From contig NZ_OU015319.1 of NCBI RefSeq assembly GCF_907163125.1, positions 1,550,001 to 1,614,000 of the forward strand: DNA of 64,000 bases, written 5' to 3'. The position numbers and the translations under genes were made by a program. This DNA is from Cloacibacterium caeni (GTDB lineage Bacteria > Bacteroidota > Bacteroidia > Flavobacteriales > Weeksellaceae). Shown here in pieces: positions 13,320 to 43,319 of the stretch; position 1 is the first letter of the stretch, and each line of letters starts with the position of its first letter. The notes beneath the pieces were generated by a model that had not been told where the DNA came from, made no database searches, and worked only from the letters and a program-made list of their open reading frames with translations.

Positions 13320-13545
13320 TTTAAACGCAAAGATTTATTTTTGATTTCGCTTAATTTTTAAGTCGCTTCGCTCAGCAATGTTCGCAAAGGTGAAAATCAA
13401 AGATTTTCTATACAAAATGAACGCTGAATTTATATAAATTTGTGTGCTTTGCAATTCATCTTTGATGAATCTTTGCATATCTTAAAAATATTTTAAAAGT
13501 ATTTAAAGAAATTCTTTGCGAACTTTGCGTTAATCAATTAAATTT
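13320..13545. repeat. hairpin-rich extragenic repeat segment
   Basis: The gap between pcm and the divergent oxidoreductase holds word repeats also seen in the 31-42 kb repeat regions (AACGCAAAGATTT, GCTTCGCT) and small palindromes such as GAAAATCAAAGATTTTC and TTCATCTTTGATGAA. No ORF or RNA gene was recognised. Confidence 0.5.
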
Positions 13546-31018: not shown

Positions 31019-32304
31019 CAGTACTTTTACTATACTTTAACTATACTACAACTATGCTATAACATAGCAGTTATGTTGGGATTCTTTGGTTAAGTGTAGG
31101 AGGATGCGTGATTTTTTATTGTATGTTCTTTTGACTTCGTCGAACCACTCCGTTAGGTTTGGCTTGAACCAAAAGAACCAAAAGTTCAAGTCTGGAAATC
31201 CTCAGCTAAAAATGTTTAGCCTTTTCTAAAAACTCAGAAACTCACTCGGCAGAATGCCGAGCTTAAACAGCAGACTTTTTTAACGAAAAAGCTAAACATT
31301 TTTTTAACGCTTGCGGTTTCCTAGGACATCAATCGCAAGTCAATTTCTAATGAACTGAAGAATTTCTGCCCTTTCAATCTCTTTAATATTTAATGAGTTG
31401 TGAAGTCGTGAGTTGTGAAGTCGTGAGTTATGAATTATGAATTATGAATTAGAAGGTGATGAAGGTCACGGATTAAAAACAGCTCTATTAGATTAATCGC
31501 TGTCTCCATATCAAATTGGGTTTCTTTATGTATGAAATTACTTTCTTCAATAAAAACACCCCGTCATTCCGATGCTCGGAATGCCACCCCTCTGTAAGAG
31601 GGGAACTGACTCTATGTATTTTGGCTTCGTGAACTTCGTTCGCAGACTTTTGGTCTTTGATTAGTCAACGGGATTCGTGAGGTTGTGAAGTTGTGAAATC
31701 GTAAAGTTGATGATTTGTAAAGTTGTTAAGTCGTAAAGTTGTTAAGTCGTAAAGTTGAAATATTTTGCTTTATGAAGAGATTCTTCACTGCGCTGTGCTT
31801 CGTTCAGAATGACAGGGTTCTGTTTTTTGCTCACGATTAGGAATCTAATTATTGGGGGGATTTTTTTTGAAACGCAAAGATTTTTATTATTGAATTACTT
31901 TTTAAGTGAGCTAAGTTGGCGAAATTCATTCGCTATGAAGCGATGTGGTGAAGGATGAAGGATGAGGGATGCGGGGTAAAGTCGATGAGTCGTGAAGGCG
32001 TAAGTTGTGAGTTATTAGTTATGAATTATGAGTTATGAGTTATGAGTGCGGGGTAAAGTTGTGAAGTTGAAATATTTTGCTTTATGAAGAGATTCTTCAC
32101 TATGCTACGCTTCGTTCAGAATGACAGGGTTCTGTTTTTTACTCACCATTAGGAATCTAATTAATGGGGGGATTTTTTTGAAACGCAAAGATTTTTTTTT
32201 CTTGAATTGCTTTTTTTTAAGTAAGCAAAGTGGGAATTCTCTAGTGAATTGTTGAAACTTAAGTTTTAAATAATTTTTATTTATTTGGATTTTGTGATAG
32301 AGTG
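31019..32304. repeat. 1.3-kb gene-free region of dispersed repeats
   Basis: No ORF of substance. Contents: 31163-31339, a structured element of nested inverted repeats; 31390-31450 and 32010-32045, GAgTTAT/GAaTTAT heptamer runs; 31441-31830, a long direct repeat shared with 35893-36272; and two copies (31780-31920, 32070-32210) of the TTCACT...CGTTCAGAATGACAGGGTT element that also forms the 36-38 kb array. AACGCAAAGATTTTT follows each copy. Nothing suggests a protein or known RNA. Confidence 0.75.
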
Positions 32305-33515
32305 TTACATGGGTTTTACCTTCTTTTTCCTACCCCACCAAACTAAAAATCCTGTGATGGGTAAACTTGCACAAATCAAACTGGATATAAATGCCAAGAT
32401 TTTTCCAAAAGTTCCCAAAATTGCCCCTACGTGAATGTCATAATTGGCCGCCACATATTTTTCTCCAAAATTTCTTTTTTCATAAGGACGGTTCATAAGA
32501 AGTTTCCCAGAATTTTCATCAAAAATCATTTCGCTGTAAATGTAGTATTTATCTTCTAAACCTCTTACATAAACGGTAAAATTTTCATGTTCATGATCGT
32601 CTAAATGCGGATGCCCTAAATCTATTGTATATGCTGAATAATTGGGATAATGCTGTTCTACCTGCAGTGCAATTTTATCTAAAGTCTGTGTACTTTTCAT
32701 TTCGATTGGGTCTTTCGTTTTTATATGTGAGAAATCAGGATATACCGTATTACCTCCAGAAAAAATAAAATAAAAAAATGCTTGTATAAAAAAGAACGAA
32801 TAAAAAGGCCTGTCATTGCCACAATAAGAGCAATAAAAGATGCATAAAAGCCTAAAATACTGTGCAAATCGTAATTCTTTCGTTTCCAATTTTTAATATT
32901 TTTCCACTGAAACCAAAAGCGTTGTTTTCTGGCGGCTTTATTTCTTGGCCACCACAAAATAATGCCCGAAATTAGCATAAAAACAAAAATAAGAACCGGA
33001 ATCCCAACCACATATTTCCCCCAATCTGATTTGAGTAAAAAACTCCAGTGAATGAATTTAACGATATTAAAAAATCCGTTTTTCTCGTCTTGAACGGAAA
33101 GAATCTTCCCTGTAAATGGATTAATATAAACAGTCTTATAAATTTGATATTCATCAAAATAATTCCAAGCATCAGGATTTCTTTCGTAATAGTAAAACTT
33201 GTAAGATTTGCTTTTATCAATGGGAATTTCTACCCAATGCAAGGGATATTTTTCAGGATTTTGTTCGTTTATTTTTTGTTCTAAAACCCGTAAAGGCAAA
33301 GTTGATTTTCCAGCAATATTTTGTTCTGAATGGTAGATAAAATCTTTTCTTAGAGCATATTGTATATCTTCTTTAAAAACATACAAAGCGCCAGTTATGC
33401 TTACGATAAATACAATAAGACCTGTGGAAAGTCCTAGCCATAGATGGAATTTACCCATCCATTTTTTGAAAAGAGATTTTTTATTTTTTAGGCGATGTTC
33501 GTGTCTATTATTCAT
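32305..33515 (-). pseudogene. PepSY-associated membrane protein, frameshifted
   Basis: Iron-uptake-associated PepSY_TM protein (possible siderophore/ferric reductase). The 5' part (33515 down to about 32807) gives the first membrane helix WLGLSTGLIVFIVSITGALYVF, HWSFLLKSDWGKYVVG, FMLISGIILWWP and DLHSILGFYASFIALIVAMTG. The frame is lost at a five-A run (32802-32806; five T on the coding strand); one more T restores GLFYSFFFIQAFFYF and the rest, to PITGFLVWWGRKKKVKPM. Both halves are otherwise intact, about 403 codons together. It follows the TonB siderophore receptor by 78 bp in the same direction, an operon. Lesion or sequencing error. Confidence 0.85.
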
Positions 33516-33593
33516 TGCTTTTTATTAAAATCAAAAGTTAGCAGAAGAAATCTGCCAACTTTTGTGACCATTAAAACGTGATTTGAAAAAAAC

Positions 33594-35729
33594 TTAAAAA
33601 TTAAATCCTAAAGCTAAAGAAAGCGTTCTTAACCTTTGTGGGGTAACTGTACTCCAACCCGAATAATATTTAGTATTTCCAATATTATCGAGCTTTAAGG
33701 AAACACTATATTTTTCTGGATGATAGCCAATCATGGCATTGGCAATCGTATAACTAGGCAACTCGAAAGTTCCGATTCCTGTTCTGTTAAGTGTTTTATG
33801 TTCTGAAGCGTGATTAAAACCGAACCCTGCAACAAAGTTTCTAAAATTACCCTGTTGAATTTTATAGTTTGCCCAAAAATTAATTAAAGTTTCTGGTCCA
33901 GCTTCTTCGGGACGTAAACCGTTGTAAGTGGAATCTCCGCTTACCTGTTCACTCCTATTTTTACTGAATCCTGCAATGATATTAAGCCCTTTTATTGGAT
34001 TCCCGACAGCACTTAATTCAAATCCTTTACTGAACACTTCACCCCCTTGTATGGAATTGTTCATATTATTAGGGTCTGCCATTATTTTGTTCGCTACTTT
34101 AATATCATAATAGCTTGCAGTTACAGAAAGTTTATTGTCAATAAGATTGGCTTTTGCCCCCACTTCCCATTGATTAGCTCTTTCAGGATCAAATATTTTT
34201 ATAGTAGGGTTATTTCCGTTAGCATCGGTTACTTTTTGTGGCGTTAAATACTGGAATCCATTCATATAATTTGCAAAAAGAGATAGTTTGTTGAGAATCG
34301 GTTGATATACCAAACCAAATTTTGGAGAAAAGGTGGTTTGGCCATTCACTTCTTCAGTGGACCATTGTGTAGGTTTGCCGCTGAAATTATCCACCCGTAG
34401 ACTTAACATTGCAGATAATTCTGGTAAGATATTTAATACATTTGAGAAATAGGCACTCTTAATATTCATTTCTGCAGTTGCAGGAACAACCTTTGCGTCT
34501 AAGAGTGCAGCATCTGCCCCTTGCGAAGTCAGCGTGGAAGAATCAGTTTGATTTTTTAAGGAAACCGTTCCAAATGCTCTCCATTCAGAATCATTGTTTA
34601 CCACCTTCGTGTTGAGATAATCCAAACCTACTACCAGACGATTTCTCATATTTCCAACATTGAAATCGCCAATAAAATTCTGTTGAATTCCGGTTGCCAA
34701 TGTTTCACTATTGGATTTGGAAATAAATCTTGTAAATTCATCTCCATTCGCACTATCCCACAAATATTGGTAATACCCCATAGCTTTGCTTGAACTGCTC
34801 GAAAATTGAGTCTGAGACGTCCATTTATTTGATAATTTGTATATCATTTGGGATTGCAAATTGAATGTTGGATTTTTGGTTGTAAGATTATTACTGGTGT
34901 AAGATTTTTTATAATTAGCTTCAAAAATATCTATGGAATTAAACGATAAAGGAGCATATCTGCTCAAAAAAATCATTGGTGCATTGGCTGTCTCATTGCT
35001 TTTAAATTCGGTATTCACCAAAAACGTCAATTTATCATTTGCTACATATTTTAAAGAGGGAGCTATAAAGAAAGATTTATAAAATCCAGTATCTTGAAAA
35101 GAATTTTCAGTATGATAGGCAGAATTTAAGCGAAGAAAAAGCCCATTTTTGACAGGAGTATTTACATCAATAGTTACTCTATTCAGGGCGTTAGTCCCTG
35201 TAACATAATTTATTTCGCCTCCCAATTTATCATAAGGTTTTTTGGTCTGTAAATTGACCAAACCACCATAGGAAACTAAATTTCCTCCGTACAAAGTACC
35301 CGAAGGACCTTTGATAACATCAATATTTTCGATATTAGCAGGGTCGAGACCACCATTGTTGAAGCTCGCCATACCATTTACCAATCTGGATTGAGTAGAA
35401 AAACCACGCATTGTGTAATATTCTGCGCCGTCTCCACCTCTGGAAGTACTTTCCCAAAGTCTTGTAATCCCTGTAGCATTGGTTAATACATTCTTAAAAT
35501 TGGTGGAAACTTGGTCTTTCAGTATTGCCTTTGGAATACTATTATAGACTTGAGGATTTTCAATATCCTTTAAATTGAGTTTAGAAACTGAAAAAGCATT
35601 TTCATTTTTATATTTCTTCGTGTGATTGATGATTACTTCAGTAATATTTTCCACTTTGGTAGTATCTACTTGTGCGTAGAACTGAGAAAATGAACTGAAG
35701 AGGACAATAGGTAAAGCGATTTTTCTCAT
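33594..35729 (-). CDS. TonB-dependent siderophore receptor (FhuA/FpvA-like)
   Basis: Outer-membrane ferric-siderophore transporter of 711 residues. Signal peptide MRKIALPIVLFSSFSQFYAQ; plug domain about residues 65-185 with VLTNATGITRLWESTSRGG, EYYTMRGFSTQSRLVNG and IDVIKGPSGTLYGG; barrel to the C-terminal TLSLALGFNF. The line NPTIKIFDPERANQWEVGAK and ANAMIGYHPEKYSVSLKLDNIGNTKYY are typical of the siderophore clade. Two Fur-like palindromes flank its -7 element, and a PepSY protein follows, so iron-regulated siderophore uptake is the likely job. Substrate unknown. Confidence 0.93.
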   Translation of the reverse strand: MRKIALPIVLFSSFSQFYAQVDTTKVENITEVIINHTKKYKNENAFSVSKLNLKDIENPQVYNSIPKAILKDQVSTNFKNVLTNATGITRLWESTSRGGDGAEYYTMRGFSTQSRLVNGMASFNNGGLDPANIENIDVIKGPSGTLYGGNLVSYGGLVNLQTKKPYDKLGGEINYVTGTNALNRVTIDVNTPVKNGLFLRLNSAYHTENSFQDTGFYKSFFIAPSLKYVANDKLTFLVNTEFKSNETANAPMIFLSRYAPLSFNSIDIFEANYKKSYTSNNLTTKNPTFNLQSQMIYKLSNKWTSQTQFSSSSSKAMGYYQYLWDSANGDEFTRFISKSNSETLATGIQQNFIGDFNVGNMRNRLVVGLDYLNTKVVNNDSEWRAFGTVSLKNQTDSSTLTSQGADAALLDAKVVPATAEMNIKSAYFSNVLNILPELSAMLSLRVDNFSGKPTQWSTEEVNGQTTFSPKFGLVYQPILNKLSLFANYMNGFQYLTPQKVTDANGNNPTIKIFDPERANQWEVGAKANLIDNKLSVTASYYDIKVANKIMADPNNMNNSIQGGEVFSKGFELSAVGNPIKGLNIIAGFSKNRSEQVSGDSTYNGLRPEEAGPETLINFWANYKIQQGNFRNFVAGFGFNHASEHKTLNRTGIGTFELPSYTIANAMIGYHPEKYSVSLKLDNIGNTKYYSGWSTVTPQRLRTLSLALGFNF

Positions 35730-35731
35730 AT

Positions 35732-35754
35732 TTATTTAGAACGATTTTAAATAA
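35732..35754. promoter_or_regulatory. Fur-like box 1 (proximal)
   Basis: 23-bp imperfect palindrome with arms TTATTTAGAAC and TTTTAAATAA around a central base, within the untranslated leader just upstream of the receptor start codon. It resembles the ATTTAGAAT-N-ATTCTAAAT type of iron box known for Bacteroidota Fur. Confidence 0.5.
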
Positions 35755-35759
35755 CAATG

Positions 35760-35767
35760 CAAATTTA
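35760..35767 (-). promoter_or_regulatory. -7 promoter element of the siderophore receptor
   Basis: TAAATTTG on the minus strand, exact TAnnTTTG, lying between the two Fur-like boxes, so repressor binding at either would block transcription. Confidence 0.6.
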
Positions 35768-35771
35768 TATA

Positions 35772-35794
35772 TTATTTATAATTATTCTAAATAA
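35772..35794. promoter_or_regulatory. Fur-like box 2 (distal)
   Basis: 23-bp near-perfect palindrome: arms TTATTTATAAT and ATTCTAAATAA differ from perfect symmetry at one position. Located over the -33 region of the receptor promoter. Confidence 0.6.
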
Positions 35795-35834
35795 ATATAA
35801 TGACATATATCATGAATTTTAAAATGATGAGGAT

Positions 35835-35900
35835 GTGAAGTCGTGAATTATGAGTTATGAGTTATGAATTATGAGGTATGAGGTATGAGGTATGAGTTAT
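35835..35900. repeat. heptanucleotide array (GARKTAT)n
   Basis: Successive heptamers GAATTAT, GAGTTAT, GAATTAT, GAGGTAT (x3), GAGTTAT (x2). Variation is confined to two positions of the 7-mer, so the array is old or homogenised in blocks. Confidence 0.8.
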
Positions 35901-36272
35901 GAGTTAGAAGGTGATAAAGGTTACGGATTAAAAAAAAGCTCTATTAGATTAATCTCTGTCTCCATATCAAATTGGGGTTCTTTATATTGAAATTACTTTC
36001 TTCAATAAAAACACCCCGTCATTCCGATGCTCTGAATGCCACCCCTCTGTAAGAGGGGAACTGACTCTATGTATTTTGGATTCGTGAACTTCGTTCGCAG
36101 ACTTTTGGTCTTTGATTAGTCAACGGGATTCGTGAGGTTGTGAAGTTGTGAAATCGTAAAGTTGATGATTTGTAAAGTTGTTAAGTCGTAAAGTTGTTAA
36201 GTTGTGAAGTTGAAATATTTTGCTTTATGAAGAGATTCTTCACTATGCTACGCTTCGTTCAGAATGACAGGG
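35893..36272. repeat. long dispersed direct repeat (second copy of 31441-31830)
   Basis: Nearly base-for-base the same as 31441-31830 at an offset of about 4,455 bp, with only scattered differences (for example TTGGATTCG here, TTGGCTTCG there). It includes CGTCATTCCGATGCT, a CCCCTCTGTAAGAGGGG hairpin and the GTTGTGAAGTTGTGAAATCG words. The two copies bracket the receptor/PepSY locus. Confidence 0.85.
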
Positions 36273-38110
36273 TTATATATTTTAATCATGATTAGGAATC
36301 GAAATTATTTTTGAAACGCAAAGATTTTTTTTCTTGAATTGCTTTTTTAAGTGAGCTAAGTTGGCGAAATTCATTCGCTTTGAAGCGATGTGGTGAAGGA
36401 TGAAGGATGAAGGATGAAGGATGAGGGATGCGGGGTGAGGAGTGCGGGGTGCAAGTATTCTATCACAAAGTTCTCGGAGATGTGGTGAAATGATAGCGTT
36501 TTTGAGGGCTCTGAGGAACATCGGAGATGTTCTGGGAAGGTCACGGATATTCGGTTGGCAGGTGTAGAAAAACTTTTTCCTTGATGAAAAGATTCTTCAC
36601 TATGCTACGCTTCGTTCAGAATGACACGTTATGTTTTTTACTCACGATTAGGAATCTAATTATTGGGGGATTTTTTTTGAAACGCAAAGATTTTTTTTCT
36701 TGAATTGCTTTTTTAAGTAAGCTAAGTTGGCGAAATTCATTCGCTTTGAAGCGATGTGGTGAAGGATGAAGGATGCGAGGTGCGAGTATTTCAATCACGA
36801 AGTTCACGGAGATGTGGTGAAATGATTGCGTTTTTGAGAGCTCTGAGGAACATCGGAAATGTTCTGGGAAGGTCACGGATATTCGGTTGGCAGGTGTAGA
36901 AAAACTTTTTCCTTGATGAAAAGATTCTTCACTATGCTACGCTTCGTTCAGAATGACAGGGTTATATATTTTAATCATGATTAGGAATCGAAATTATTTT
37001 TGAAACGCAAAGATTTTTTTTCTTGAATTGCTTTTTTAAGTGAGCTAAGTTGGCGAAATTCATTCGCTTTGAAGCGATGTGGTGAAGGATGAAGGATGAA
37101 GGATGAAGGATGAGGGATGCGGGGTGAGGAGTGCGGGGTGCAAGTATTCTATCACAAAGTTCTCGGAGATGTGGTGAAATGATAGCGTTTTTGAGGGCTC
37201 TGAGGAACATCGGAGATGTTCTGGGAAGGTCACGGATATTCGGTTGGCAGGTGTAGAAAAACTTTTTCCTTGATGAAAAGATTCTTCACTATGCTACGCT
37301 TCGTTCAGAATGACACGTTATGTTTTTTACTCACGATTAGGAATCTAATTATTGGGGGATTTTTTTTGAAACGCAAAGATTTTTTTTCTTGAATTGCTTT
37401 TTTAAGTAAGCTAAGTTGGCGAAATTCATTCGCTTTGAAGCGATGTGGTGAAGGATGAAGGATGCGAGGTGCGAGTATTTCAATCACGAAGTTCACGGAG
37501 ATGTGGTGAAATGATTGCGTTTTTGAGAGCTCTGAGGAACATCGGAAATGTTCTGGGAAGGTCACGGATATTCGGTTGGCAGGTGTAGAAAAACTTTTTC
37601 CTTGATGAAAAGATTCTTCACTATGCTACGCTTCGTTCAGAATGACACGTTATGTTTTTTACTCACGATTAGGAATCTAATTATTGGGGGATTTTTTTTG
37701 AAACGCAAAGATTTTTTTTCTTGAATTGCTTTTTTAAGTAAGCTAAGTTGGCGAAATTCATTCGCTTTGAAGCGATGTGGTGAAGGATGAAGGATGCGAG
37801 GTGCGAGTATTTCAATCACGAAGTTCACGGAGATGTGGTGAAATGATTGCGTTTTTGAGAGCTCTGAGGAACATCGGAAATGTTCTGGGAAGGTCACGGA
37901 TATTCGGTTGGCAGGTGTAGAAAAACTTTTTCCTTGATGAAAAGATTCTTCACTACGCTGTGCTTAGTTCAGAATGACAGGGTTCTGTTTTTTGCTCACG
38001 ATTAGGAATCTATATTATTGGGGGGATTTTTTTGAATCGCAAAGATTTTTTTTCTTGAATTGCTTTTTTAAGTGAGCTAAGTGAGAATTCGCTAGCGAAT
38101 TGAGAAAGCT
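36241..38110. repeat. tandem array of 332/357-bp units (A-B-A-B-B plus a partial)
   Basis: The anchor CACTATGCTACGCTTCGTTC recurs at 36241, 36598, 36930, 37287 and 37619, with a diverged copy at 37951. Spacings are 357, 332, 357, 332, 332. A units carry extra GATGAAG heptamers and GGGTTATATATTTT; B units carry CACGTTATGTTTTTTAC. A1B1 and A2B2 look identical over 689 bp, so the last duplication is recent. Each unit holds the hairpin TTCGCTTTGAAGCGA and the imperfect palindrome GAACATCGGAGATGTTC. The 79- and 86-codon minus-strand ORFs inside are by-products of the repeat. Confidence 0.88.
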
Positions 38111-38618
38111 ATGTTTTAAATATTTTATTATATTTAAGTAATAACAAAGTAATAGTCACGGATTACAAATCCGCGACATCGGTGCTAAGTTGGCGAAATT
38201 CATTCGCTATGAAACTTTATGGAAATTGTTATTTAAACAGTTTTTTTATCAAAAAGTTCACGGAGATGTGTTGAAAGGATGGTGTTTTTTTGGCTCTGAG
38301 GAACATTGGAGCTCAAAGTCTGGAGAGTTTGCGCAGCAATGTTTGTTTTTTAGTCAAGATTTAAAATGCTAAAATTGAGAGTGCTTACAATGATACCCTT
38401 CATTTTGTGCACTATTGTAATTTTAACAAAATTATTAAATATCAACCAAAAATCATACTCCTTTTTAAGAGATAATTATGGGAATAGGACTATCATTTAT
38501 CAATCCCAAATAGTATGAAAATTAGAATTTTCATATTGCCATAAATATTTTCAAAAATCTTATGATGGTAAAGTAAAAGATAAACATCTGTTGAATCATT
38601 TATGAATCATTTATAAAG
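38111..38618. other. gene-free gap with isolated palindromes
   Basis: Next to the array end is AATTCGCTAGCGAATT (38086-38101). Then CGGATTACAAATCCG at about 38158-38172, a word I know as a common Bacteroidota extragenic repeat. At 38514-38535 is a perfect palindrome with 10-bp arms (TATGAAAATT/AATTTTCATA) around AG. No gene recognised; the 60-codon ORF at 38190 reads through repeat sequence and is not credible. Confidence 0.6.
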
Positions 38619-38640
38619 AAAGAGACTGATCAGTCTCTTT
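38619..38640 (-). terminator. intrinsic terminator of the DJ-1/PfpI gene
   Basis: Perfect 22-nt palindrome with AAAGAGACTGA arms and T-rich flanks, 11 bp past the stop codon. Confidence 0.8.
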
Positions 38641-38651
38641 TCTATTATCAA

Positions 38652-39446
38652 TTATTGAAGTTTTTTAAGTTCTTCTAAAACAGCTTCGCCAACTGCATGA
38701 GCAGATTGAGGATTTTGACCTGTTACTACTCTTTCGTCTACTGCAACGTGTGTTTGCCATAAACCTGATTTTTCGAACTTGGCTCCACGTTCTATTAATT
38801 TAGATTCTAATCTAAATGGAACCACATCATCTAATTTCACAGCAGCTTCTTCTTCGTTGGTGAAAGCATTGATTTTTTTGCCATCTACCAAATATTTTCC
38901 ATTGCTGAGTTTAATGTTCACCAATCCAGCAGGACCGTGACAAACCGCACTTACTACTCCATTTTTTTCGTAGATTTTTTGAGCGATTAGTGCCAGTTCT
39001 TCATTATCTGCAAAATCCCACATCGTACCGTGACCTCCTGCATAAAGAATCGCCACATATTCATCTGGATTTACTTCTGAAGGTTTCATGGTGTTCTGAA
39101 TTTTATTTTGGTAATATTCATCTGCCAAAAATCTTTCATTAACCTTATCATCTGGAGTATTTCCATAATACGGCGGATTTCCTCCTTTTGGACTCACGAA
39201 ATCTATTTCGTAACCAGCATCTGCCAATACAGCCCAAGGATGCGTAACTTCACCTAAATAATAACCGGTAGCTTCACCAGTGTTTCCTAATTCGCCGTGG
39301 CTCGTTACCACGAATAATACTTTTTTGCTCATTTTGTTAGATTTAATTGTTTGTGCATTTACCATGTTCATTCCTAAAAAAAGAATACAACTCGTTAAGA
39401 AAATTATCTTTGATATAAACTTGTTCTGACTATATTTCCTATTCAT
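38652..39446 (-). CDS. DJ-1/PfpI (ThiJ) family protein, Hsp31-like, with signal peptide
   Basis: Class I amidotransferase-like fold. The nucleophile elbow VSAVCHGPAGLV carries the conserved Cys; Glu of the active site lies in TSHGELGNTGEATGYYLGE and YVAILYAGGHGTMWDF is the oxyanion region; the arrangement fits the Hsp31-like/glyoxalase III branch. Residues 1-32 form a signal peptide (FISKIIFLTSCILFLGMNMVNAQ), unusual for this mostly cytosolic group. An internal start at MSKKVLFVVT (Met 39) would make a cytosolic 226-residue form. A Crp-family regulator gene lies just upstream on the same strand. Confidence 0.85.
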   Translation of the reverse strand: MNRKYSQNKFISKIIFLTSCILFLGMNMVNAQTIKSNKMSKKVLFVVTSHGELGNTGEATGYYLGEVTHPWAVLADAGYEIDFVSPKGGNPPYYGNTPDDKVNERFLADEYYQNKIQNTMKPSEVNPDEYVAILYAGGHGTMWDFADNEELALIAQKIYEKNGVVSAVCHGPAGLVNIKLSNGKYLVDGKKINAFTNEEEAAVKLDDVVPFRLESKLIERGAKFEKSGLWQTHVAVDERVVTGQNPQSAHAVGEAVLEELKKLQ

Positions 39447-39535
39447 TTTTTTAATGATTTAACACTGCAAAGGTAAATCCAACTTCCCACAAACAACAGG
39501 ACGTACATCACAACTTTTTTGTGACCTACATCACA

Positions 39536-40099
39536 TTACACCGAAAGCCGACTCAAGGTTTCTCTGGAAACTCCTAAATACGAAGCGATTAACGTTTTGG
39601 GCAATCGTTGCAAAAGTGTAGGATATTGAGAAATAAATTGTTCATAGCGTTCTTTGGCATTGCTATTCAGCAAAGACAAAATTCTTCGTTGGAGCGCTAC
39701 ATAACCATTATTCGACTTTTTTCTGAAAAAATGCTCCATTTTATGCATGTCTGCACAGAGTTTCTCTCGATTATAAAGAGACAACGTAAGCACTTCTGTA
39801 GGTTCTAAAGCATCAATGGTAAAAGTCGCTTCCGTTTGATTAAAATAGGCTTGATAATCGGTAATCCACCAATCTTCCATTGCAAATTGCATAATATGTT
39901 CTTTGCCTTCTTGATTCAGGTAAGAAGCTTTTAACAAACCATTCATCACAAAATAATCATTTTGTACCGCATCTCCATCTTGAATTAAAATCTGATGCTT
40001 TTTTAATTTTTTCAAGGTAAAATGAGACAGAATATACTCGAACTCTTGGTCTGTTAATGGTGTAATATTCTCAATTTGACGTCTTAAAATCTCACTCAT
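39536..40099 (-). CDS. Crp/Fnr-family transcriptional regulator
   Basis: A cyclic-nucleotide-binding-like jelly roll spans residues about 15-125 (HQILIQDGDAVQNDYFVMNGLLKASYLNQEGKEH is its core) and a shortened C-terminal winged helix ends with TLIASYLGVSRETLSRL, the recognition helix. The residues that bind cAMP in CRP are not preserved, so the ligand is unknown. 187 residues is usual for flavobacterial members. Located 89 bp upstream of the DJ-1 gene on the same strand, so it may control it. Confidence 0.9.
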   Translation of the reverse strand: MSEILRRQIENITPLTDQEFEYILSHFTLKKLKKHQILIQDGDAVQNDYFVMNGLLKASYLNQEGKEHIMQFAMEDWWITDYQAYFNQTEATFTIDALEPTEVLTLSLYNREKLCADMHKMEHFFRKKSNNGYVALQRRILSLLNSNAKERYEQFISQYPTLLQRLPKTLIASYLGVSRETLSRLSV

Positions 40100-40165
40100 A
40101 TTTTTATCATTCTAAATTGCAAACAAAAGAATTGTTCTCTCCAAATGTAGAATATTGAAAGCAAA

Positions 40166-40190
40166 AAATCCATCAAAAGCGATGGATTTT
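40166..40190 (-). terminator. intrinsic terminator of the SDR gene
   Basis: AAAATCCATC/GATGGATTTT hairpin, T-run on both strands, 23 bp past the SDR stop. Confidence 0.8.
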
Positions 40191-40212
40191 TTAAATATTG
40201 TAGATGCAATTC

Positions 40213-40926
40213 TTATGGATTGGTAGAGAAAATAGAAGCATTAGCAATCATGGCTCTTCTGTTCATTTTCAAAATATCTCTCACCCATTCTGCGAAATCT
40301 TCTGGTTGAAGCACTTTTTCTGGGTTACCATCAGTAAGTTTACCTTCTATACTCATATCAGTAGCAATGGTACTTGGTGTTAAGGTTATTACACGAATAT
40401 TGAATTTTCTAAGTTCTGCCATCAATGATTGAGAAAGTGAAATTACCGCAGCTTTAGAAGCACAGTATGCTGACATATTCGGACCGCCTTTTAATCCCGC
40501 AGTTGACGCTACATTTACGATGTCTCCTTCTTTATTTTGTTTGATATAAGGCAAAGTTGCTTTTGCTACGTAATAGACACCAAAAAGATTCACCTTCATT
40601 ACTTTTTCCCAAGTTTCTACCGGCATATCTTCGAAGCTGCCAAAATCACCTACTCCAGCGTTATTGATTAAAATGTCTATTCCGCCCAATTGAGAAGCGA
40701 TAGAAGCTACGCCTTGCTCCACTTGAGCCATCTCATCTACATTAAAAACAGAATAGACTGCTTTTACTCCTAATTTTTCCAATTCTGCAACGGTAGACTT
40801 TAGATGTTCTTCATTTCTACCCGTAATTCCTACATTTACGCCTTCATTTGCCAAAGCTACAGCTACCGCTTTCCCAAGACCTCTTCCACCACCTGTAATC
40901 AGTGCATTTTTACCTTTTAAATTCAT
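40213..40926 (-). CDS. short-chain dehydrogenase/reductase (3-oxoacyl-ACP reductase-like)
   Basis: Classical SDR of 237 residues: cofactor motif TGGGRGLGKAVAVALA (TGxxxGxG, residues 10-25), NNAGVGDFGS, catalytic Ser in VNVASTAGLKG, and Y-x3-K in YCASKAAVISLSQSL. The Arg in TGRNEEH after beta 2 suggests NADPH. Annotated FabG-like by resemblance; it lies alone, not in a fatty-acid cluster, so the true substrate may differ. Confidence 0.9.
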   Translation of the reverse strand: MNLKGKNALITGGGRGLGKAVAVALANEGVNVGITGRNEEHLKSTVAELEKLGVKAVYSVFNVDEMAQVEQGVASIASQLGGIDILINNAGVGDFGSFEDMPVETWEKVMKVNLFGVYYVAKATLPYIKQNKEGDIVNVASTAGLKGGPNMSAYCASKAAVISLSQSLMAELRKFNIRVITLTPSTIATDMSIEGKLTDGNPEKVLQPEDFAEWVRDILKMNRRAMIANASIFSTNP

Positions 40927-41019
40927 AACTTTTTTTATTTATACTGTTTGCAAAATTAAGAAAATAAAACCGCCTAAATGATTTCTGATGATGAATAAAA
41001 TCTAAAGAAAAAGGTGAAT

Positions 41020-41802
41020 AAATCTATGGCAGAAAAGAATTATTGAGTTGATAGGTCATGGATTATAGATTAGTGCAATCTGACTTATTTTTATATCACA
41101 AAGTTCACGGAGATGTATTGAAAAAATGGCGTTTTTGAGGGCTCTGAGGAACATTGGAAATTGTGAAAGTGTAAAGTTGTAAAGTTGTGAGTTATGAGGT
41201 ATGAATTATGAGTTATGAGTTATGAGTGCGGGGTAAAGTTGTGAAGTTGATGATTTGTAAAGTTGTGAAGTTGTTAAGTGGTAAAGTTGAAATATTTTGC
41301 TTTATGAAGAGATTCTTCACTATGCTACGCTTCGTTCAGAATGACAGGGTTTTGTTATTTACTCACGATTAGAAATCTGCTCTATTGCGTTAAAATCCGC
41401 CCGTAGGAGGTATGAGGTTTGAAGAAGTATGAAGTATGAAGTATGAAGTATGAAGTATGAGGTATGAGGTATGAGGTATGAGGTATGAATTATGAGTTAT
41501 GAGTTATGAGTTATGAGTGCGGGGTAAAGTTGTGAAGTTGATGATTTGTAAAGTTGTGAAGTTGTTAAGTCGTAAAGTTGAAATATTTTGCTTTATGAAG
41601 AGATTCTTCACTATGCTACGCTTCGTTCAGAATGACAGGGTTCTGTTTTTTGCTCACGATTAGAAATCTGCTCTATTGCGTTAAAATCCGCCCGTAGGAG
41701 GTATGAGGTTTGAAGAAGTATGAAGTATGAAGTATGAGGTATGAGGTATGAATTAGGAGTTAGAAGATGATGAAGGTTACGGACTAAAAAAGCTCTATTA
41801 GA
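41020..41802. repeat. heptamer arrays and two 291-bp tandem units
   Basis: The segment starting GCGGGGTAAAGTTGTGAAG at about 41228 recurs 291 bp later at 41519, with only scattered differences through GAGGTTTGAAGAAG. Between and around are heptamer runs: GAAGTAT (x4-5), GAGGTAT (x4-5), GAATTAT and GAGTTAT (x3). A further fragment at 41100-41165 (GTTCACGGAGATGTATTGAAA, GCTCTGAGGAACATTGG) matches parts of the 36-38 kb units. No gene. Confidence 0.85.
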
Positions 41803-41941
41803 TGTAATAGCTACGACTTAATCTGAAACAAGGCTGTTTTTATTTAAGATTGTGATGGGTTTTGTGAGACATAAATTTGAGTTGTCCTAAAAAAGGTTGA
41901 CTCGTTAATAATTCAAATATAGTTAAATCGTAGCTATTACA
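41803..41941. mobile_element. 139-bp MITE-like element
   Basis: Terminal inverted repeats of 19 bp with one mismatch: TGTAATAGCTACGACTTAA at 41803-41821 and TTAAATCGTAGCTATTACA at 41923-41941. The inside (AAGGTTGACTCGTTAATAATTC) is non-coding. No target duplication was seen at the borders. Confidence 0.55.
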
Positions 41942-41954
41942 GTTTAAAAAATTA

Positions 41955-43319
41955 GGTAGTATTTCATTAACTGTGTAAGTTGAAAAGTTATTCTGAAAAA
42001 TTTTGAGCAATAAAAGCTCAAAAAATTTTTCGGAAATAACTTTTTACTATTTTATATATTTACATAGTTATGATTGACAAAGAAGACTTATTAAACAACA
42101 AGGATTTCTACAAATCCTTTAAGAATGGAGAAGATTTAACCTCATTCTTTAAACAAATGCACAAACGAGCTGTAGAACACATGCTCGAAGCCGAACTTGA
42201 TGCTCATCTCGACAACGAGAAACACGAAAAAACCACCACTGGAAACTATCGTAACGGACACGGAACCAAAAAGATAAAATCCTCATTTGGTGAATCTGAA
42301 ATAAAAATTCCCAGAGATAGAGAAAGTAGTTTTGAACCAGCTCTAGTTCCTAAAAGACACAATATTATAGAAGGTTTAGAAAATATCATTATCTCCTTTT
42401 ATGCTAAAGGAATGAGCGTGAGCGATATTGAGGAGCAAATTCGTGAGATGTACGATTTTGAAGTCTCTACTTCTACCATTTCTAGGATTACTGATGCAGT
42501 TGCAAGCGAAGTAGTGAGTTGGCAGAATAGACCATTAGAAGACCTTTATCTCATTGTTTGGATGGATGGAATTGTCTTTAAAGTTCGTGAAAACTCAAAA
42601 GTCATCAATAAAACCATCTATTTAGCGGTAGGTTTAAACCGTGATGGCAAGAAAGAAGTTCTCGGAATGTGGCTCGGAAAAAACGAAAGTTCTAGTTTTT
42701 GGATGACTGTTTTAACCGATTTAAAAGCTCGTGGTGTAGAAGATATTTTAATTACAGCTACCGATAATTTGAATGGATTTACCCAGACTATTCGCTCAAT
42801 TTTTCCTGAATCTCAAACCCAAATCTGTGTAGTTCATCAAATTAGAAACGCCTGTAAATACGTGGTTTGGAAAGACAGAAAAGACTTTACTGCCGATATG
42901 AAGCACATCTATAATGCTCCAAATAAACAAGCGGCAGAAGCCGCTCTGAATGATTTTGCAGAAAAATGGGAATCCAAATATGCTTATGCGATAAAATCGT
43001 GGAGAGATAATTGGGACGAACTGACTGTATTTTTTGACTTTCCTTTGGAAATCCGTAAAATTATTTACACTACTAATTTAATTGAAAATCTCAATGGAAA
43101 AATCAGAAAATATACCAAAAACAAAATGTCTTTCCCTACGGATGATGCAGTCTTGAAGTCGGTTTTTCTTGCTTTAAAGGAAGCTACCAAAAAATGGTCA
43201 ATGCCAATCCAAAATTGGGGTATTGTTTTAAACCAATTTATGCTTATTTTTGACAAAAGGCTCAGATTATAAAATCCAAGCCTTAACTTTTTAACTTACA
43301 CACTTTTTGGGATAGTGTC
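41955..43319 (+). mobile_element. IS256-family insertion sequence with 8-bp target duplication
   Basis: 1365-bp element. The right end reads outward GACACTATCCCAAAAAG then TGTGTAAGTTAAAAAGTTA; the left end GGTAGTATTTCATTAAC then TGTGTAAGTTGAAAAGTTA: an imperfect inverted repeat of about 36 bp whose inner 19 bp match at 18 positions. Flanks AAAAATTA at 41947-41954 and 43320-43327 are identical, the 8-bp duplication expected for IS256. Intact and probably active. Confidence 0.88.
42070..43272 (+). CDS. IS256-family (mutator-type) transposase
   Basis: DDE transposase of 400 residues. N-terminal DNA-binding part includes [29 protein letters not shown] and [12 protein letters not shown]; the RNase-H-like core shows [10 protein letters not shown] (first Asp), TDNLNGF (second Asp) after the [14 protein letters not shown] block, the family's C/H motif CVVHQIRNA, and [16 protein letters not shown] (Glu). 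All landmark residues are present. A hairpin TTTTTGAGC/GCTCAAAAA at about 42000-42026 between the IS end and the gene may dampen read-in transcription. Confidence 0.96.

Follow-up and report, generated by a model that had tools for sequence, protein, structure and literature searches.

Repeats in the spaces between prokaryotic genes take several described forms that bear on the array analyzed here. The NIME arrays of Neisseria mix several short repeat families in intergenic arrays of 200-2700 bp (PMC3898611) and have been tied to rearrangement as well as to strains differing by whole genes (PMC9778887). REP elements carry GTAG or CGTC tags on their palindromes (PMC3733652). Non-coding satellites with long units, dispersed over several places in a genome, are reported to be rare in prokaryotes, the survey in question finding them, among its species, only in Leptospira interrogans and Methanocella conradii (PMC6749651). 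A literature search that covered few subscription journals gave no account, in the portions of text it returned, of Cloacibacterium tandem repeats or of the repeats described below; as far as titles and the beginnings of abstracts tell, publications on genome rearrangement in Cloacibacterium do not deal with them either.

We examined an array in a 64,000-nucleotide stretch of the Cloacibacterium caeni chromosome (the window; positions 1550001-1614000, forward strand, of genome G000, a single contig of 2.98 Mb). The array is real and its family interesting, while the general mechanism that we propose is ordinary and a causal role of the array in rearrangement is putative.

Anatomy of the array

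The array is non-coding and intergenic, spans 36227-38082 of the window and has the order A(356)-B(332)-A(357)-B(332)-B(332), followed by a 147-bp partial unit. Related sequences border it on both sides and recur in two further arrays nearby:

31393-32286, plus strand: related array without a full A/B unit, on the far side of TonB/PepSY genes
35844-36212, plus strand: left edge, with TGAGTTA heptamers (35844-35906), UP module (35906-36131) and octamer tract (36132-36212)
36227-36582, plus strand: unit A1, 356 bp
36583-36914, plus strand: unit B1, 332 bp
36915-37271, plus strand: unit A2, 357 bp
37272-37603, plus strand: unit B2, 332 bp, same as B1
37604-37935, plus strand: unit B3, 332 bp, same as B1
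37936-38082, plus strand: partial sixth unit (R44, T and part of CGC), 134 matches in 149 columns when aligned with B
38084-38310, plus strand: right edge, with palindrome, REP hairpin and CGC/CAC remnant (38184-38310)
41084-41812, plus strand: related array without a full A/B unit, 291-bp period, 1.9 copies (TRF, 41188-41751)

A unit consists of R44 (43 bp), T (41 bp), CGC (85 bp), a heptamer tract and CAC (130 bp), in that order; the module names R44, T, CGC, CAC, UP and ECO were coined in the present analysis. In B3 the modules lie at 37607-37649 (R44), 37650-37690 (T) and 37691-37775 (CGC), with the heptamer tract next and CAC at 37806-37935. The three B units are identical over their 332 bp, and all that separates A1 from A2 is a single substitution plus one base at the 5' edge. 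The pair A1-B1 is repeated as A2-B2, giving a perfect match of 726 bp at a shift of 689 (starting at 36233), and a shift of 332 gives a perfect match of 408 bp (starting at 37216). TRF reports a period of 332 and 4.9 copies with a score of 1897. A preliminary description of this DNA, made from its letters, had recognized the five units with a partial one as well as an apparently perfect 689-bp duplication, and both are borne out here, with ends that differ from ours by at most 14 bp on the left and 28 bp on the right. Its statement that A and B differ mostly by loss or gain of heptamers is accurate for the gaps in B, where 35 of 36 positions are one heptamer tract, but the alignment (305 matches) also contains 16 substitutions and 11 gap positions in A, 10 of which form one block.

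Palindromes mark both edges. On the left, a CGTC-tagged palindrome lies within the UP module at 36017-36038; on the right are the AATTCGCT/AGCGAATT palindrome at 38086-38101 and a REP hairpin (38155-38177) that is identical to the REP adjoining a RAYT gene at 1351 kb.

Distribution along the chromosome

The preliminary description had proposed looking for the unit elsewhere in the genome. At least 56 matches to B3 are found there at E<=0.001 (blastn-type search; 40 of 103 candidates scored), and the modules recur in five clusters, at 443-456, 775-781, 1129, 1351-1363 and 1581-1592 kb; inside any one cluster they keep a common order and orientation. Relatives of the unit that had been passed over earlier also lie within the window itself, at 31.4-32.3 kb and 41.1-41.8 kb. 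With up to 3 mismatches allowed, the R44 pattern is found 37 times, 24 times within the five clusters and 13 times outside, and its reversed control not at all; the CGC core has 17 matches, every one in four of the five clusters. Over the 845 kb surveyed for this purpose (28% of the genome), repeat cover per stretch peaks in the cluster stretches. R44, T, CAC and UP all point the same way within a cluster. A single weak CGC match (68%), at 767313, departs from uniform orientation, as do the palindromic modules ECO and REP.

Clusters lie on the minus strand at 0.44-1.13 Mb and on the plus strand at 1.35-1.59 Mb. GC skew, sampled in 40 stretches and the window, changes sign at 1.06-1.12 Mb and near 2.3 Mb, so that the switch in cluster strand, seen in few independent clusters, falls close to the first of these changes. 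The sole dnaA-family match (1293402-1293887, minus strand) lies near the skew-inferred terminus side, away from the skew-inferred origin at about 2.3 Mb, a position with which the rRNA genes at 1.99 Mb (minus) and 2.73 Mb (plus) are consistent. We make no claim about replication polarity, because there are few clusters, these are orthologous across species, and dispersed R44 copies depart from the rule. Nor do the data support the earlier suggestion of a nucleoid or replication-related element: orientation is uniform within clusters, but independent clusters are few and R44 copies elsewhere follow no single rule.

Distribution across species

A B-unit match at E<=0.001 is present in 24 of 99 genomes, G000 included (as a rule, 7 candidates scored per genome). 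Among the matches scored, long ones occur only in Cloacibacterium G000, G002, G003, G005 (C. normanense) and G006, and those outside the genus fall in the R44 or CGC region; among the candidates scored, Cloacibacterium G001 has two short matches and G004 has none. In the clusters of the four related genomes, too, modules share order and orientation within a cluster. The B unit has no match among 72,556 plasmids and 50,697 phages, and we dropped an origin from either on that account.

The best cross-species match of a CAC module is at the orthologous locus for 36 of 37 modules, and mean identity is 0.895 between copies at the same locus in other species versus 0.787 between copies at other loci of the same species. 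CAC thus groups by locus across species, so that growth of the units is local and they pass down together with their locus. This pattern indicates that the clusters predate these species and that each is homogenized locally. The CAC core is near-invariant, without internal gaps over 89 columns in 37 modules from five genomes, and contains a dyad (GAACATC..GATGTTC) whose six predicted pairs are kept in 36-37 of the 37, one pair being kept in 36 and broken in 1. Compensatory change was found in none of the six pairs across these modules.

In C. normanense the orthologous locus lies beside the same TonB gene, whose protein is 100% identical in C. normanense IMET F, and its flanks are 96-97% identical to those of C. 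caeni. The mosaic between them is a different one, with R44, T, CGC, UP and REP; CAC is missing, and C. normanense therefore has no A/B units at this locus. The different mosaic implies that copy number is labile. At 3-4% divergence, copies as old as the species split would show about 22-29 differences per 726 bp, and we observe none, so the 726-bp duplication is either recent or homogenized. The preliminary proposal of a site of copy-number change agrees with both observations, the changed mosaic in C. normanense and a duplication that is perfect despite the divergence of the flanks.

Coding potential, RNA and folding

Codon-phase conservation is absent in the 37 CAC modules (phase permutation p 0.24) and no frame is open in all of them; the three B units contain an antisense 86-aa ORF with a single Pfam hit, below cut-off (E 0.12). 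On these grounds a protein-coding repeat was rejected. The units had been called structured, and short inverted repeats do exist in them, but the predicted folding of one unit is no more stable than that of dinucleotide shuffles (z -0.45 for RNA of the plus strand, -1.20 for RNA of the minus strand and -0.15 for DNA of the plus strand). Rfam gave no match at E<=1 across 35730-38651, and of the 10 matches to a Bacteroidetes-type promoter in the window none is inside the array. Promoter-like matches of the sigma-70 type are at chance level (13, against 9.0 in shuffles, sd 3.4), and two of them recur in the A units, at 36264 and 36953.

REP, RAYT and other Y1 transposases

The RAYT gene at the 1351-kb cluster scores 100.2 bits against model NF047646 (cut-off 80) and is bracketed by inverted REP copies at 1350907 and 1351687, the same REP as at the array edge (38155-38177). 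The genome has four other Y1_Tnp hits. R44 lies on both sides of none of the five Y1 genes within 1.5 kb each side; it lies on one side only at 372 kb and 1352 kb and is absent at the other three. In a REPtron test, which looks for a transposase gene flanked by the palindrome, REP 38155-38177 alone gave that arrangement. The array contains REP-type palindromes, one of them with a proper RAYT partner, yet the unit is not a REP.

Neighboring genes and gene order

The genes around the array are as follows:

32305-32889 and 32721-33515, minus strand: PepSY-like ORFs (named by eye)
33594-35729, minus strand: TonB receptor
38615-41019, minus strand: block of DJ-1/PfpI, Crp-like (by eye) and short-chain dehydrogenase genes

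The TonB/PepSY genes (32305-35729) sit between direct repeats, 31393-31971 and 35850-36416, that are 90.7% identical over 581 columns. These genes are missing next to the peptidase in the stretches of G003 and G006, where an aminotransferase gene follows the M28 peptidase; G000 and G005 do not have that gene at E<=1e-50. The DJ-1/Crp/SDR block lies on opposite sides of tRNA-peptidase in G000 versus C. normanense, at 96.3% identity, and in C. normanense has no module at either edge. In G000 and G006 an efflux operon is close to nos; in G003 the distance between them is about 550 kb, and the operon sits inside an array and adjoins a 214-aa gene. That array is 96% identical on one side to the efflux-side repeat of G006 and 95.5% on the other to the repeat beside the 214-aa gene; end to end, this hybrid stretch also matches single-locus arrays, at about 84-85%.

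We compared neighbor pairs across G002, G003, G005 and G006, dropping insertion-sequence genes and two doubtful ORFs and setting aside 8 cells at stretch edges. Where an array separates the two genes, 7 of 8 pairs are broken in one or more relatives and 1 is kept in all, against 10 broken and 28 kept among 38 pairs without an array (Fisher p 0.0023, a value that rests on non-independent pairs and on relatives' stretches chosen for holding repeats). Array-free pairs with spacers of at least 300 bp are broken in 4 of 5 cases, so the array's own effect on gene order is not isolated, and gene-order change may follow long spacers rather than arrays as such. Gene order is retained in at least two relatives at two array positions, one between 443.7 and a ligA-like gene and the other between that gene and 446.9. 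A stronger count (9/10 versus 9/39) was set aside because its breaks included insertion-sequence genes and a divergent orthologue, and a cruder first one (6/23 versus 51/80 adjacent) was superseded by the count of 8 versus 38 pairs.

Other genes and repeats at the clusters

A family of 214-249-aa proteins has four genes in G000, three of them in repeat clusters (L063:16858-17607, L064:15238-15882 and L065:11431-12180, at 452.9, 781.2 and 1131.4 kb); across G000, G002, G003, G005 and G006, 10 of 15 genes are in cluster stretches, and among the other five the one examined, at 272 kb, has no cluster around it. The family is present in 74 of 148 family genomes, has no Pfam, NCBIfam or clear PHROG match and no relative among viral contigs, and its predicted structure is a poor model (mean pLDDT 52.5). 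By eye, the orthologous array of C. normanense carries the first 15 codons of this family followed by a stop (L052 reverse complement, about 13396-13445). Beside two repeat clusters stand copies of a 400-aa transposase that looks IS256-like by eye (42070-43272 of the window and L064:12979-14181); where aligned, the two proteins are 100% identical. A 15-bp repeat coding NFGKE/NFSKE is expanded in frame in a Type ISP restriction-methylase-like ORF (PF18135, PF02384; L063:10924-16213, 446.9-452.2 kb of G000), and in the same interval it recurs as non-coding sequence on both sides of a Y1_Tnp gene.

Discussion

We consider it probable, with moderate confidence, that the array is a recombination substrate like the mosaic elements of Neisseria and grows by unequal exchange; recombination here is suggested by comparing sequences. 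Block number and neighboring genes differ between species, and the blocks thus probably act as places of recombination. Its history would be one of recent, local amplification in tandem, starting from a mosaic repeat that is intergenic and non-coding and is made of R44, T, CGC, the heptamer tract, CAC and other modules. Between such co-oriented direct repeats, homologous recombination, unequal crossing-over or replication slippage could both duplicate and delete units. Heptamer and octamer tracts would be natural slippage points. Blocks of genes that two arrays enclose, TonB/PepSY for example, may be lost, gained or moved via the direct repeats, and a REP-associated tyrosine transposase is the probable origin of some palindromic modules (REP). 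Counting against this explanation, the near-invariance of the CAC core between loci exceeds what a pure recombination substrate would need. The breakage of long array-free spacers, the module-free edges of the DJ-1 block in C. normanense, the end-to-end matches of the G003 hybrid stretch to single-locus arrays and the two array positions with retained gene order count against it as well.

Alternatively, the array may be a neutral or selfish repeat, in which REP-type elements spread by RAYT or another Y1 transposase were amplified in place and the gene moves just happen to fall in long spacers. The RAYT gene with its inverted REPs beside the 1351-kb cluster, the four further Y1_Tnp hits, the breakage of long array-free spacers and the 13 dispersed copies of R44 would all fit; the failure of R44 to flank any Y1 gene on both sides does not, and a CAC module that is locus-specific across species speaks against ongoing transposition of whole units, which leaves this account unlikely, though worth taking seriously. 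The conservation of CAC, gap-free in all 37 modules and with its predicted pairs kept almost throughout, could instead reflect a putative site bound by a protein of the chromosome or by a recombinase, the tandem copies raising its dosage. We give this a slim chance, as none of the six pairs has a compensatory change and C. normanense does without CAC at the window locus; we know of no protein partner for the dyad.

The preliminary description had also raised the possibility of a repeated small-RNA source, with which we group regulatory RNA. Intergenic, repeated units and the two sigma-70-like matches recurring in A would suit such a source, but with no Rfam match, no Bacteroidetes-type promoter in the array, promoter-like matches at chance, no excess folding and no covariation in the CAC dyad, we find it scarcely credible. 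An assembly artefact that inflates copy number is nearly as hard to believe: the perfection of the 726-bp duplication speaks for it, but the genome is one contig and several assemblies carry multi-unit arrays of the family. A more elaborate version of exchange between arrays is a network of a few chromosomal stations, each with a co-oriented mosaic array of its own. Homologous recombination would cut out blocks bracketed by direct-repeat arrays (the efflux operon, TonB/PepSY, DJ-1/Crp/SDR) and insert them again at another station, perhaps with aid from the 214-249-aa family, whose genes are often neighbors of the arrays. We regard this as rather doubtful; if true, it would give an integron-like outcome without a dedicated site-specific recombinase.

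The Cloacibacterium array shares features with each of the known systems. As in REP/RAYT systems, the genome has a RAYT gene with inverted REPs on both sides and the same REP at the array edge, as well as a palindrome in the UP module that is CGTC-tagged by the definition in PMC3733652; the array differs in that the 332/357-bp unit is a composite whose commonest module, R44, is never two-sided at a Y1 gene. Like NIME arrays, the Cloacibacterium arrays are intergenic mosaics of several repeat families with lengths in the range of about 200-2700 bp. Unlike them, their modules are unrelated in sequence as far as compared, and they keep one orientation per cluster in few clusters, versus hundreds of copies in Neisseria. 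Because dRS3 (ATTCCC N8 GGGAAT), the 20-bp inverted repeat that flanks RS units, serves a phage integrase and defines NIME, has no occurrence in the window with up to one mismatch, we do not file the array as NIME, though it would work most like one. If the recombination-substrate explanation is right, Bacteroidota have, in a non-pathogenic genus of wastewater, a counterpart to the intergenic mosaic arrays of Neisseria, in the form of inherited, locus-specific stations associated with differences in gene content; the array would then also bear on the origin and persistence of non-coding satellites in compact genomes. Finally, the array resembles the satellites of L. interrogans and M. conradii in being long-unit, non-coding and present at several places in one genome; what sets it apart from those satellites is that several species retain its units at orthologous loci and that a unit combines modules of different kinds.
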